Assembly: GCA_031272515.1 (NCBI GenBank)
Contig: JAISTR010000003.1
Location: 62,001-126,000, forward strand
DNA: 64,000 bases
Source of the DNA: Erysipelotrichaceae bacterium
GTDB lineage: Bacteria > Bacillota_I > Bacilli_A > Erysipelotrichales > Erysipelotrichaceae
Reading direction: 5' to 3'
Made by a program: the position numbers and the translations under genes. Below, in pieces: positions 47,740-52,311 of this stretch. Every line of letters starts with the position of its first letter. Positions within the stretch are counted from its first letter, which is position 1. Under the pieces are notes generated by a model that saw only the letters and a list, made by a program, of their open reading frames with translations, was not told the DNA's origin and did no database searches.

Positions 47740-48810
47740 ATGGATGCAATGGTGGAGCGCTTGGCAAAAATGCAGGAGCGCTATAATGAAATAAGCAAAG
47801 AACTGCTTGAACCGGAGGTACTGGCTGACCCCAAGCGTTTGGCAGCCCTCTCCAAAGAGCAGGCTGGCTTGAATCAGCCGGTTGAAGCCTACCAGCTGCT
47901 TGTAAAGTACCTGGATCAAATCAGCCAGGCTCAAGAGCTGGCACAGGGAAATGACAGCGAGCTCAAAGAACTGGCACAATTGGAGCTTGCGGAACTGGAG
48001 CCCAAGCTGCAGGAGCTAAGGGAACATCTGGAAATCCTGTTGATACCCAAGGACCCCAATGATGACCACAACGCCTTGGTGGAGATACGCGGGGCGGCAG
48101 GCGGCGATGAGGGCAACATCTTCGCCGGCGACCTGTTTCGGATGTACGTCAAGTATTTTGAAAACAACGGCTTTAAATATGAAATCATGGAGAGCAGTGA
48201 ATCCGCCGCCGGCGGCTACACCCTGATTTCCTTCTATGTCAAAGGACCGTCGCCCTATGGCCATCTGAAATTTGAGTCCGGGGCCCACCGCGTGCAGCGG
48301 GTGCCCAAGACCGAAGCCCAGGGGCGCATTCATACCTCCACCGCTACGGTGCTGGTATTACCGGAGGCGGAGGAGGCTGATATCGATATCGATGAGGCGG
48401 ACCTGGAGATTGAGACCCACCGTTCCTCCGGGGCCGGCGGTCAGCACATCAACAAGACCGACTCGGCTGTCCGCATCACCCACAAACCCACCGGTATTTC
48501 CGTGAACTGCCAGGACGGGCGCTCCCAGCACGACAACCGGGCAACCGCGATGCGGCTGATCCGAGCCCGGGTACTGGAGGAGCTCAACCGTCAGCAGGAG
48601 GAAAAGCAGGGGGCGGAGCGCCGGGCAAAGATTGGGACCGGGGATCGGGCGGAGAAGATCCGTACCTACAACTATCCGCAAAACCGGGTGACCGACCACC
48701 GGATTGGATTGACCTTGAACCAGCTGGACCGGATTATGGAAGGCCGGCTGGATGAAGTGATAGACGCCTTATTGGCTGAGGAACAAAGGAGGAAGCTGGC
48801 AGGGGAATGA
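47740..48810 (+). CDS. prfA: Peptide chain release factor 1
   Basis: 356 residues behind GGAGG. The stop-codon reading region follows a helical N-domain; the catalytic GGQ is in SSGAGGQHINKTDSAVR and the C-terminal NRVTDHRIG is typical. Reads UAA/UAG and releases the peptide. ATGA overlap with prmC, its own methylase. Confidence 0.98.
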   Translation: MDAMVERLAKMQERYNEISKELLEPEVLADPKRLAALSKEQAGLNQPVEAYQLLVKYLDQISQAQELAQGNDSELKELAQLELAELEPKLQELREHLEILLIPKDPNDDHNALVEIRGAAGGDEGNIFAGDLFRMYVKYFENNGFKYEIMESSESAAGGYTLISFYVKGPSPYGHLKFESGAHRVQRVPKTEAQGRIHTSTATVLVLPEAEEADIDIDEADLEIETHRSSGAGGQHINKTDSAVRITHKPTGISVNCQDGRSQHDNRATAMRLIRARVLEELNRQQEEKQGAERRAKIGTGDRAEKIRTYNYPQNRVTDHRIGLTLNQLDRIMEGRLDEVIDALLAEEQRRKLAGE

Positions 48811-49700
48811 CGAGCTACAGGGAAGCATTGAAACAGGCAAACCACCTTCTCAAGAATCCGATTGACCGCCAGGAGGCCCACTACCTGTTGGTGGAACTGG
48901 CAAAGCAGGATTTTGTGGATTTGTATCTTTCGATGGATGAAGAGGCAAGCGAAGACTTTTTGTTGCGGTTTAAACAAGGGGTGCACCGGCTCATCAAGCA
49001 GGAACCCCTGGCGCATATTCTGGGTTATACCTATTTTTACGGCTATCGCATCAAATGCGATCCCCGGGCCCTGATTCCCAGAAGGGAAACCGAGGAGCTG
49101 GCCGGGGAAGTGCTGGCGACGATTGACACCTTTTTTAAACCGTCTGATGATCTGGTACTGGCGGATATCGGTACCGGCAGCGGGGCTTTGGCCATCACCT
49201 TTGGAAAGGAGCTGGCCGGTCTGGAAGTGATTGCCACCGACATCAGCAAAGACGCCCTGGCCTTAGCCAGGGAGAACAGCGAAGCCAATCATGTAAAGCT
49301 TCGTACCTTTTGCGGTTCATTGTTGGAGCCGTTAATCAAAAATCGCATCAAACTCGACATCCTGGTTTGTAATCCGCCCTATATCCCAACAAAGGAAGAG
49401 GTGGCGGCTTCGGTGAAGAACTATGAACCGCACATCGCCTTATATGGCGGTGAAGACGGCATGCAGTACTACCACGAACTCTTTGACAAGGCCAATCAGG
49501 TGCTCAAGGACCGGGCTTTTATGGCCTTTGAAATCGGGGAAGGGCAGAAGCTGCCCCTATTACAGGAAATTGCCGCCAAGCTGCCGGATATGCGGGCTTT
49601 AATAAAAAAAGACATGCAGGGAGTGGACCGGATGCTGTTTGTCTTCAAGGGCAATATGGAACCAGGAGCGGATTACCAAATAATTCCGGAAAATCCTTAA
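48807..49700 (+). CDS. prmC: Release factor glutamine methyltransferase
   Basis: 297 residues. N-terminal helical domain; SAM-binding ADIGTGSGALAI and catalytic NPPYIPTKEEV. Methylates the Gln of the release-factor GGQ motif, in keeping with its place after prfA. Ends with a short polar extension. Confidence 0.95.
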   Translation: MTSYREALKQANHLLKNPIDRQEAHYLLVELAKQDFVDLYLSMDEEASEDFLLRFKQGVHRLIKQEPLAHILGYTYFYGYRIKCDPRALIPRRETEELAGEVLATIDTFFKPSDDLVLADIGTGSGALAITFGKELAGLEVIATDISKDALALARENSEANHVKLRTFCGSLLEPLIKNRIKLDILVCNPPYIPTKEEVAASVKNYEPHIALYGGEDGMQYYHELFDKANQVLKDRAFMAFEIGEGQKLPLLQEIAAKLPDMRALIKKDMQGVDRMLFVFKGNMEPGADYQIIPENP

Positions 49701-49788: not shown

Positions 49789-49817
49789 TTGCATTTGCTG
49801 GAAAACTTTGGTATGGT
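49789..49817 (+). promoter_or_regulatory. Promoter of a small RNA gene
   Basis: TTGCAT (49789-49794), 17-nt spacer, TATGGT (49812-49817). No ORF with a ribosome site follows; a terminator does, at 49921. Confidence 0.65.
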
Positions 49818-49821
49818 GAGG

Positions 49822-49952
49822 ACATCAAGCAGAAGTGGCAGTTCTCACTATTCCTGAAGTGAGGCAACCAGTCTGTGGGAATTCCCGGCTGCGGAGGGTT
49901 GGATACATCCGCAGGCGGTTAAGAGGATCCTTGCGATGAGTCCTCTTTTTTT
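49822..49952 (+). ncRNA. Candidate small structured RNA, about 130 nt
   Basis: Bounded by a good promoter and an intrinsic terminator (AAGAGGA 49921-49927, TCCTCTT 49941-49947, then T's). Inside are two clear hairpins: CTCAC/GTGAG (49844-49863) and CTGCGGA/TCCGCAG (49889-49914). The 5' GAGGACATC (49818-49826) could also pair with GAT-ga-GTCCTC (49935-49945), an alternative to the terminator, if transcription starts early enough. It is not SRP RNA (no GGAAGNAGC-type core), tmRNA or an obvious riboswitch. 6S RNA is possible but length is short and I cannot confirm it. Confidence 0.6.
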
Positions 49953-50052
49953 ATACAAAAGCAGACTGGTAAAAATTGGCAGGGCAGCGATGGTCAAAAG
50001 TCTGTAATCATTATGTTTATCCACGATACAAAAAAATAACGGCGTGATAAAT

Positions 50053-50080
50053 ACGTGGTCTTTAGTCGCGTATGTGAAAC
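50053..50080 (+). repeat. Solo copy resembling the IS605 right end
   Basis: TGGTCTTTAGTCGCG then TATGTGAAACAC resembles the tnpB right end (CGGTCTTCAGCCGCG then ATGTAGTTCAC) at 51690-51715. No tnpB precedes this copy, so it is a solo or ancient end. The remainder of 49953-50136 shows an AGAGCC/GGCTCT hairpin (50109-50133) and nothing else recognisable. Confidence 0.45.
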
Positions 50081-50136
50081 ACCGAACTGCACGAAGTGAG
50101 AATAGCAAGAGCCACCCATGAAAGAAGGCTCTTTTA

Positions 50137-50258
50137 TTATCCCTGGTTTTCGATATAGTGCTTTAGCGTATTTTCTGAGACTTCACCGATTGTCAATCAG
50201 ATATAGCTTTTCGCCCAAAGACGTTTCTTTCTGTCTTAAAAGAGCTTGAAAAAGACAA
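50137..50258 (-). pseudogene. tnpA (IS200/IS605 Y1 transposase) C-terminal remnant
   Basis: On the minus strand the frame reads RKKRLWAKSYI, a TGA stop, then LTIGEVSENTLKHYIENQG and TAA at 50137-50139. This is the C-terminal end of IS200-type TnpA (normally LW-kSYFvsTvGEVS-eTlk-YIenQ) broken by a stop codon. Upstream of it no further transposase sequence is intact. Divergent from tnpB, as in IS605. Confidence 0.72.
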
Positions 50259-50426
50259 TCTTTGACCTGATCTTAATCTAAAACTATTGGTTTTTCTCTT
50301 GGTTTTGATAAATAATTCAGATTACTAATCTTATAACTTCATTACTTTCATGCAAAATGATTGATTTGGTAAATATTACCTAATTAATTAAGATTTTAAC
50401 GCATAGTTTTATGGTATAATTTAAGT

Positions 50427-51635
50427 ATGAAAAAAGACTTCTCGGAAAAGAACAAAAAGATTAAAGAAGCGATGAAAGCCACCCATACAAGACGCCAGGT
50501 GCAGGCATGCAGGGTATTCACGCTTAAGATTAATCAAAAGAAGCTTTCCCTAAAACAAAGAGAAGCCTTGAAGATGATATTTGTAGAGGGTAAGTGGCTT
50601 AGAAATGCCATCATCGCTTGGACAAAAGAGAGTGAAGATAACAAGCCTTGGGAGTATGATGGTAATCTTAAAAGCGTACCAGTCAAGCTGCGTGACGGCA
50701 GCTATGAGCAGCGTGAGCTTCGTTATCTGGCTATGCAGATGCGCCAGTCTGTTCTCGCTGAGGTTATCCACAACATCAAAGGATTATCTGCAGCAAAGAA
50801 GAAAGGTCGCAAGGTAGGAGCTCTCAGGTTCACGAGCGAACTGAAGTCATTGAACCTGAAGCAGTTCGGCATGAGCCACAAGTTCAAGTCGAAACACCGT
50901 ATGAAACTGCGGAACATCCCCGGTACGGTATATGTGTCAGGGGTGGGGCAGATCCCCGGGGGGTGCGAAATCGCTAACGCGAAGCTGCTTAATACCCCAA
51001 GAGGCTACTACATCGCCATCACATGCTTTATAGACAAAGAGATTGTAGAACAAAAAGAAATGCACTATGAGATTCAAGGTGAGATAGGCATTGACATGGG
51101 AAGAACAACGTCCGTGACGCTATCGACAGGTGAAAAGATCAACGTCCAGATTGAAGAAACCGGGCATTTGAAGCGCCTACAAATGAAGCTGGCGCGTCAG
51201 ACAAAAGGCTCGAACAACTGGAAGAAGACGAAACACCTGATAGAGAAGGAATACCAAAAGCTCAAGGCGAAACGAAATGATGCAGGCAACAAACTTGTGC
51301 ATGATTTGTTACGCTACGAGCGCATCTACATGCAGGATGAAAACCTGCGTGACTGGCACAACAAGAAAGTGCAGAACTCCTGCCTCGGGAGGGTGAAAGC
51401 AAAGCTATCTGGTCACCCCCGCGTCGTCATGCTGCCGAGGACGGCGGCGACGACTAAAACATGCGTATGTGGGTACAAACAGCCGATGCACCTGTGGGAC
51501 CGCACTTTTAGATGTGAGGTGTGTGGATACACCGACGACAGGGACATCCACGCCGCCAAAAACATGATTCGGTTAGGGCATCAGTATCAAGTAGGTTTGG
51601 GACGCACCGATTTTAAGCTTGTGGAGAAAGAGTAA
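50427..51635 (+). CDS. tnpB: TnpB RNA-guided nuclease of IS605 type
   Basis: 402 residues from ATG 50427, preceded by an extended -10 TGGTATAAT. N-terminal HTH-like and beta-barrel part (VFTLKINQKKLSLKQREA); RuvC residues Asp in EIGIDMGRTTSV, Glu in IYMQDENLRDWH and Asp in YTDDRDIHAAKNM; zinc finger CVCGY plus CEVCGY (first pair is C-x-C instead of C-x2-C). Relatives cut DNA guided by omega-RNA transcribed from their own 3' end. The reading frame is complete, so the nuclease could be active although tnpA is dead. Confidence 0.93.
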   Translation: MKKDFSEKNKKIKEAMKATHTRRQVQACRVFTLKINQKKLSLKQREALKMIFVEGKWLRNAIIAWTKESEDNKPWEYDGNLKSVPVKLRDGSYEQRELRYLAMQMRQSVLAEVIHNIKGLSAAKKKGRKVGALRFTSELKSLNLKQFGMSHKFKSKHRMKLRNIPGTVYVSGVGQIPGGCEIANAKLLNTPRGYYIAITCFIDKEIVEQKEMHYEIQGEIGIDMGRTTSVTLSTGEKINVQIEETGHLKRLQMKLARQTKGSNNWKKTKHLIEKEYQKLKAKRNDAGNKLVHDLLRYERIYMQDENLRDWHNKKVQNSCLGRVKAKLSGHPRVVMLPRTAATTKTCVCGYKQPMHLWDRTFRCEVCGYTDDRDIHAAKNMIRLGHQYQVGLGRTDFKLVEKE

Positions 51636-51715
51636 GACTCGAAATCCCAGCGGGGTGAAGAGCATCTTTCCGTGAAGCAGGAAGCGTCGCGGTCTTCAGC
51701 CGCGATGTAGTTCAC
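51560..51715 (+). ncRNA. Putative omega-RNA / IS605 right end
   Basis: Overlaps the 3' end of tnpB and ends at the right end. It holds the CCCAGCGGGG segment, GAAGCAGGAAGC and the TCGCGG-tcttcag-CCGCGA hairpin before TTCAC, the arrangement of known omega-RNA scaffolds; bases 51716 onward would be the guide. The 5' limit is not determined. Confidence 0.5.
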
Positions 51716-51744: not shown

Positions 51745-52311
51745 ATGTCAAGAGAAAGAGGGCATACCCCGCAGTCCAAAGCATTTTTACAACAATTGAA
51801 AGTCAACGACCCGATTCAAGAGGAGGACTACATCGCCGCGGTGCGCGGCGCCATCAAGGACCGGGCCAAAGTGATCTATTTTATCCTGAAGGCACTCGAG
51901 AAGATGCATCCGGAAATTGACGCCAAGGCAGTCATCACCCAGGGGATCCGGGATTTCGGGCTCTACCAAAGCAAGACCGGCTGGAAGAATGTTACAAATG
52001 CGAAAGAGGCGATGATTGCGATGTCCTCGAAACCGGCCATCATCGCCCTGGACCAGGACTACTATGAACTACAAGAAAACCACGCCAAAAAGGTCGTGCA
52101 CGACTGTGCGCTGATTGAAGCATATAAGGAGATGGGATTATCCAAAGAAGAGATCAGGGAACTCTGCCAGGAAGTGCTGATGTGTGTGGAATATGCGATT
52201 TTTGATGACCACAAGGACGCCTTTGCCTACAGTCTGCCGACGATGCTTACTAATGAAGGGCAGGAGGAGTTGGGCTGCACCTACGAGTTTACAGCGCCAA
52301 AAACGAAATAA
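51745..52311 (+). CDS. ATC-hydrolase-like family protein
   Basis: 188 residues behind GAGGAGA, only 30 nt from the transposon end. Mostly helical. The C-terminal part (NHAKKVVHDCALIEAYKEMGL, EIRELCQEVLMCVEYAI, then TYEFTAPKT) resembles L-2-amino-thiazoline-4-carboxylic acid hydrolase family proteins (PF14196-like), which often serve unknown roles. No signal peptide. The insertion may have separated it from its own promoter. Confidence 0.6.
   Translation: MSRERGHTPQSKAFLQQLKVNDPIQEEDYIAAVRGAIKDRAKVIYFILKALEKMHPEIDAKAVITQGIRDFGLYQSKTGWKNVTNAKEAMIAMSSKPAIIALDQDYYELQENHAKKVVHDCALIEAYKEMGLSKEEIRELCQEVLMCVEYAIFDDHKDAFAYSLPTMLTNEGQEELGCTYEFTAPKTK

Follow-up and report, generated by a model that had tools for sequence, protein, structure and literature searches.

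A GC-rich block of about 131 nt downstream of prmC is predicted to fold into three separate hairpins, the last of which is an intrinsic terminator, and an IS200/IS605 element lies between this block and a lone gene of the ATC-hydrolase family, referred to below as gene 51745 (Table 1; all positions are those of the window, i.e. the whole stretch of 64,000 nt that was analysed). Because the element separates the two, the insertion may be what makes the RNA look stand-alone, and the block may once have been joined to the gene as its attenuator leader. We therefore tentatively read the block as a lineage-specific 5' leader or attenuator for gene 51745 which was cut off by the insertion, a possible rather than a probable origin.

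Table 1. Features of the region downstream of prmC (window positions).
Feature	Position	Strand	Description and basis
prmC	48807-49700	+	upstream gene; Pfam PrmC_N and MTS
Possible extended -10 promoter	49789-49817	+	TTGCAT 49789-49794, 17-nt spacer, TATGGT 49812-49817, TG before the -10
Candidate structured RNA	49822-49952	+	about 131 nt; fold z, Rfam and homologue searches
Hairpin 1	49829-49876	+	long irregular stem, loop AUUCCUGA; predicted folds
Hairpin 2	49885-49918	+	CUGCGGA/UCCGCAG stem; predicted folds
Intrinsic terminator	49921-49952	+	AAGAGGAU...AGUCCUCUU and seven T; hairpin 49921-49947, seven T 49946-49952
23-codon ORF, probably incidental	49936-50007	+	AAGAGGA (49921-49927) ahead; sequence
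IS200/IS605 element	50026-51715	+	tnpB 50427-51635; Pfam OrfB_IS605 and TNB; separates the RNA from gene 51745
Lone gene, ATC-hydrolase family (gene 51745)	51745-52311	+	Pfam PF14196, 28.9 bits vs cut-off 28.1; possible original downstream gene

The GC content of the block is 54%, whereas that of the gap following the prmC stop is 27%. The two strong hairpins and the T-run terminator within about 130 nt, as described in the earlier note, are present, and the predicted fold is better than chance, with a z of -3.06 to -3.08 against dinucleotide shuffles. When the terminator was left out, the z was -3.35, placing the two extra hairpins alone well beyond the shuffles. The same z was reached by 2.4% of random 131-nt segments from the same 64 kb; the fold is unusual, yet not unique within the window. 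No long ORF was found in the candidate region, which agrees with the earlier description of the block as free of ORFs, although a 23-codon ORF preceded by an SD-like AAGAGGA starts inside the terminator. A GCGAU/GCCAU loop (UUGCGAUGAGUCCUC and similar) recurs in terminators at several unrelated Bacilli loci (L093 1625-1653, L103 and L105) as well as at 49922-49946 of the window.

A MITE-like copy on contig C51 (L099, about 1494-1549) has lost its interior, so that its left and right ends abut, and comparison with it gave the limits of the IS200/IS605 element. In the left part of the element (about 50117-50250, minus strand), an apparent remnant of tnpA (Y1 transposase) broken by a stop was noticed by eye. 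With the element removed to give the inferred empty site, 71 + 29 nt (approximately 100 nt) lie between the terminator and the ATG of gene 51745, which has a good SD (AGAGGAG). The best promoter in these 100 nt scored only 4.9, and none was recognisable, compared with 9.87 for the RNA's own promoter; these scores come from a rough weight matrix of our own, by which operon-internal genes score low too. With the same scoring, about two thirds of the candidate gene starts scanned in the window reached at least 7, and the clear ones about 9-14.

If the block was a leader of gene 51745, transcription would start near 49823, the RNA would fold into the two hairpins, and transcription would terminate near 49952 as long as no ligand, protein or ribosome acted as a signal to block the formation of the terminator. 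With the terminator blocked, gene 51745 would have been read before the insertion; after it, the main product would be the terminated RNA of about 130 nt. The structure z of about -3, the position of the terminator about 100 nt ahead of gene 51745 in the empty site and the low promoter score of the intervening sequence argue for a leader. In the inferred empty site only, the layout of promoter, structured RNA, intrinsic terminator, approximately 100 nt, SD and start codon would be shared with attenuating leaders and riboswitches of Firmicutes such as the T-box and SAM types, but the candidate differs from these in having no Rfam aptamer match, no antiterminator that could be seen and no conserved relatives. 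The absence of an evident antiterminator, together with a terminator that forms at a probability of 0.99, argues against a leader, although a ligand- or protein-dependent alternative fold may exist. It also counts against a leader that gene 51745 may have been co-transcribed with prmC, or that the gap may have been altered otherwise since.

The distribution of gene 51745 also bears on its link with the RNA. Only one match (25%) was found among 311 genomes of the order, and the gene was nearly absent from 392 genomes of the phylum except for a 30% paralogue in the source genome (C49:91054-91434), which follows a recombinase-like gene. With gene 51745 so rare in the genomes sampled from the order and phylum, a lack of homologous leaders would not be surprising. 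The paralogue on C49 argues against a leader as well, since no RNA like the candidate was found in its own leader.

As a leader or an sRNA, the block would be transcribed from the putative promoter TTGCAT-17-TATGGT proposed in the earlier note. This site is present with a TG ahead of the -10, matches the consensus hexamers at 3/6 and 4/6 positions and is the top-scoring one in the gap; however, its score was equalled in 25% of the gap's dinucleotide shuffles, and it was absent from the list of a consensus promoter scan, so that a site of this quality could arise by chance in a gap this rich in AT. The promoter would place the transcription start at about 49822-49825. The idea that the 5' end competes with the terminator stem holds only for an RNA that begins at about 49818, where GAGGAC is able to pair with the 3' arm of the terminator and the terminator probability drops to 0.41. 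From the start implied by the promoter, the terminator forms at 0.99 because the GAGG is then outside the transcript; this probability applied to transcripts starting at 49820-49826, and longer read-through transcripts gave 0.88-0.99. The switch suggested in the earlier note and the promoter suggested with it thus do not fit together. No antiterminator was predicted either, the 5' arm of the terminator being unpaired in the fold computed without its 3' arm.

Alternatively, the block may encode a lineage-restricted, stand-alone and trans-acting sRNA, transcribed from the 49789-49817 promoter up to the terminator; either its pyrimidine-rich loop (AUUCCUGA) or its linker (GGGAAUUCCC) would then base-pair with target mRNAs. 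The gathering of a promoter-like site, a compact fold and a terminator within one block is consistent with such an sRNA, as are the GC-rich island inside an AT-rich gap and the absence of a long ORF. We nevertheless regard it as somewhat doubtful, as the promoter is not above chance and no homologue was found in 316 genomes of the order or 395 of the class. The complete stand-alone transcription unit of the earlier note was thus not established, given the promoter within chance, the lack of an obvious terminator between prmC and the RNA, and the IS element downstream, which separates the RNA from a gene that it may have led.

To search for relatives of the RNA, we used blastn and a covariance model (R2) built from a single sequence, the candidate itself, with its own predicted fold, and therefore of limited reach. 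The source genome is Erysipelotrichaceae-like; the closest PrmC relatives, several of which are named Erysipelotrichaceae MAGs, were at most 47% identical, and no further genome of the window's genus was returned by the PrmC search. Against 60 relatives and 273 family genomes, blastn returned short fragments only, several of them the terminator alone, and R2 detected no homologue in the genomes of the order and class. Six weak R2 matches (G208, G249, G300, G643, G528 and G490) were rejected as wholly or partly coding sequence or as terminator-only similarity; in one of the six, the match lies on a tRNA-like stretch with a terminator behind it. Several weak matches to the candidate are explained by the recurring GCGAU/GCCAU-loop terminators. 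In 38 relatives, the region downstream of prmC varied in synteny and held different genes and no similar RNA. Phage and plasmid records, and viral contigs searched with exact patterns, gave nothing relevant. With no sign of conservation in the blastn or covariance searches of family, order and class genomes, the candidate RNA is likely absent beyond the genus.

The block may also be the 3' end of the tdk-MATE-prfA-prmC operon, i.e. a 3' UTR and terminator with incidental hairpins and no function at the RNA level. From the prmC stop (49700) to the terminator at 49921-49952, no other GC-rich terminator was evident in the sequence or in a scan, which is consistent with an operon end, as are the promoter within chance and the lack of conservation found. 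However, the two extra hairpins beat the shuffles by far even without the terminator, and the sharp step in GC content exceeds the needs of such an end; we consider this reading somewhat unlikely.

The candidate was compared with known RNA families as well. The earlier note's statement that the RNA belongs to no known class is borne out by Rfam, which gave no match at the gathering score in the whole window and, locally, only chance matches up to E = 5, none of them meaningful and none to a riboswitch aptamer or T-box in the candidate. Weak matches to FinP and LINC00901 were rejected as chance: the candidate resembles FinP (RF00107) in having two hairpins and a weak similarity on the minus strand (21.5 bits, E 0.09), but it falls under the 45-bit gathering score, on the wrong strand with no terminator on that side, and lacks a traJ context. 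No tRNA or tmRNA was found at the candidate by ARAGORN, SRP RNA is excluded because that of the genome is on contig C33, and a literature search found nothing on the candidate. It is quite improbable, in our estimate, that the block represents a new class, be it one of riboswitches or attenuators, formerly in control of an ATC-hydrolase-like gene and orphaned by a transposon, or one of sRNAs that is confined to an unsampled Erysipelotrichaceae-like genus.

The identity as a short or divergent 6S RNA, proposed in the earlier note, was a serious candidate because the source genome seemed to lack 6S by RF00013, which matched in 28 of the 31 genomes searched and detected none in the source genome, its best match there being a chance one inside a coding gene. 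Like 6S RNA, the candidate is intergenic, noncoding and small (130-160 nt for the two); its fold and sequence differ. A covariance model (R1) built from the 6S of 13 relatives found the full-length 6S of the source genome at C49:46981-47134 (117.6 bits, E 1e-22), a locus missed by RF00013 and preceded by a clear TATAAT promoter, whereas the candidate scored 2.9 bits or less with the filters off and its three predicted hairpins do not form the 6S rod of closing stem, central bubble and terminal stem. We thus reject a 6S identity with near certainty, barring a second copy that is beyond recognition.

These results indicate that the 6S of this lineage escapes the Rfam model but is readily recovered by one specific to the family. 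If real, the RNA downstream of prmC would be one more orphan bacterial RNA, with a stand-alone look possibly made by a transposon, and would call for caution when intergenic RNAs are listed from single genomes.
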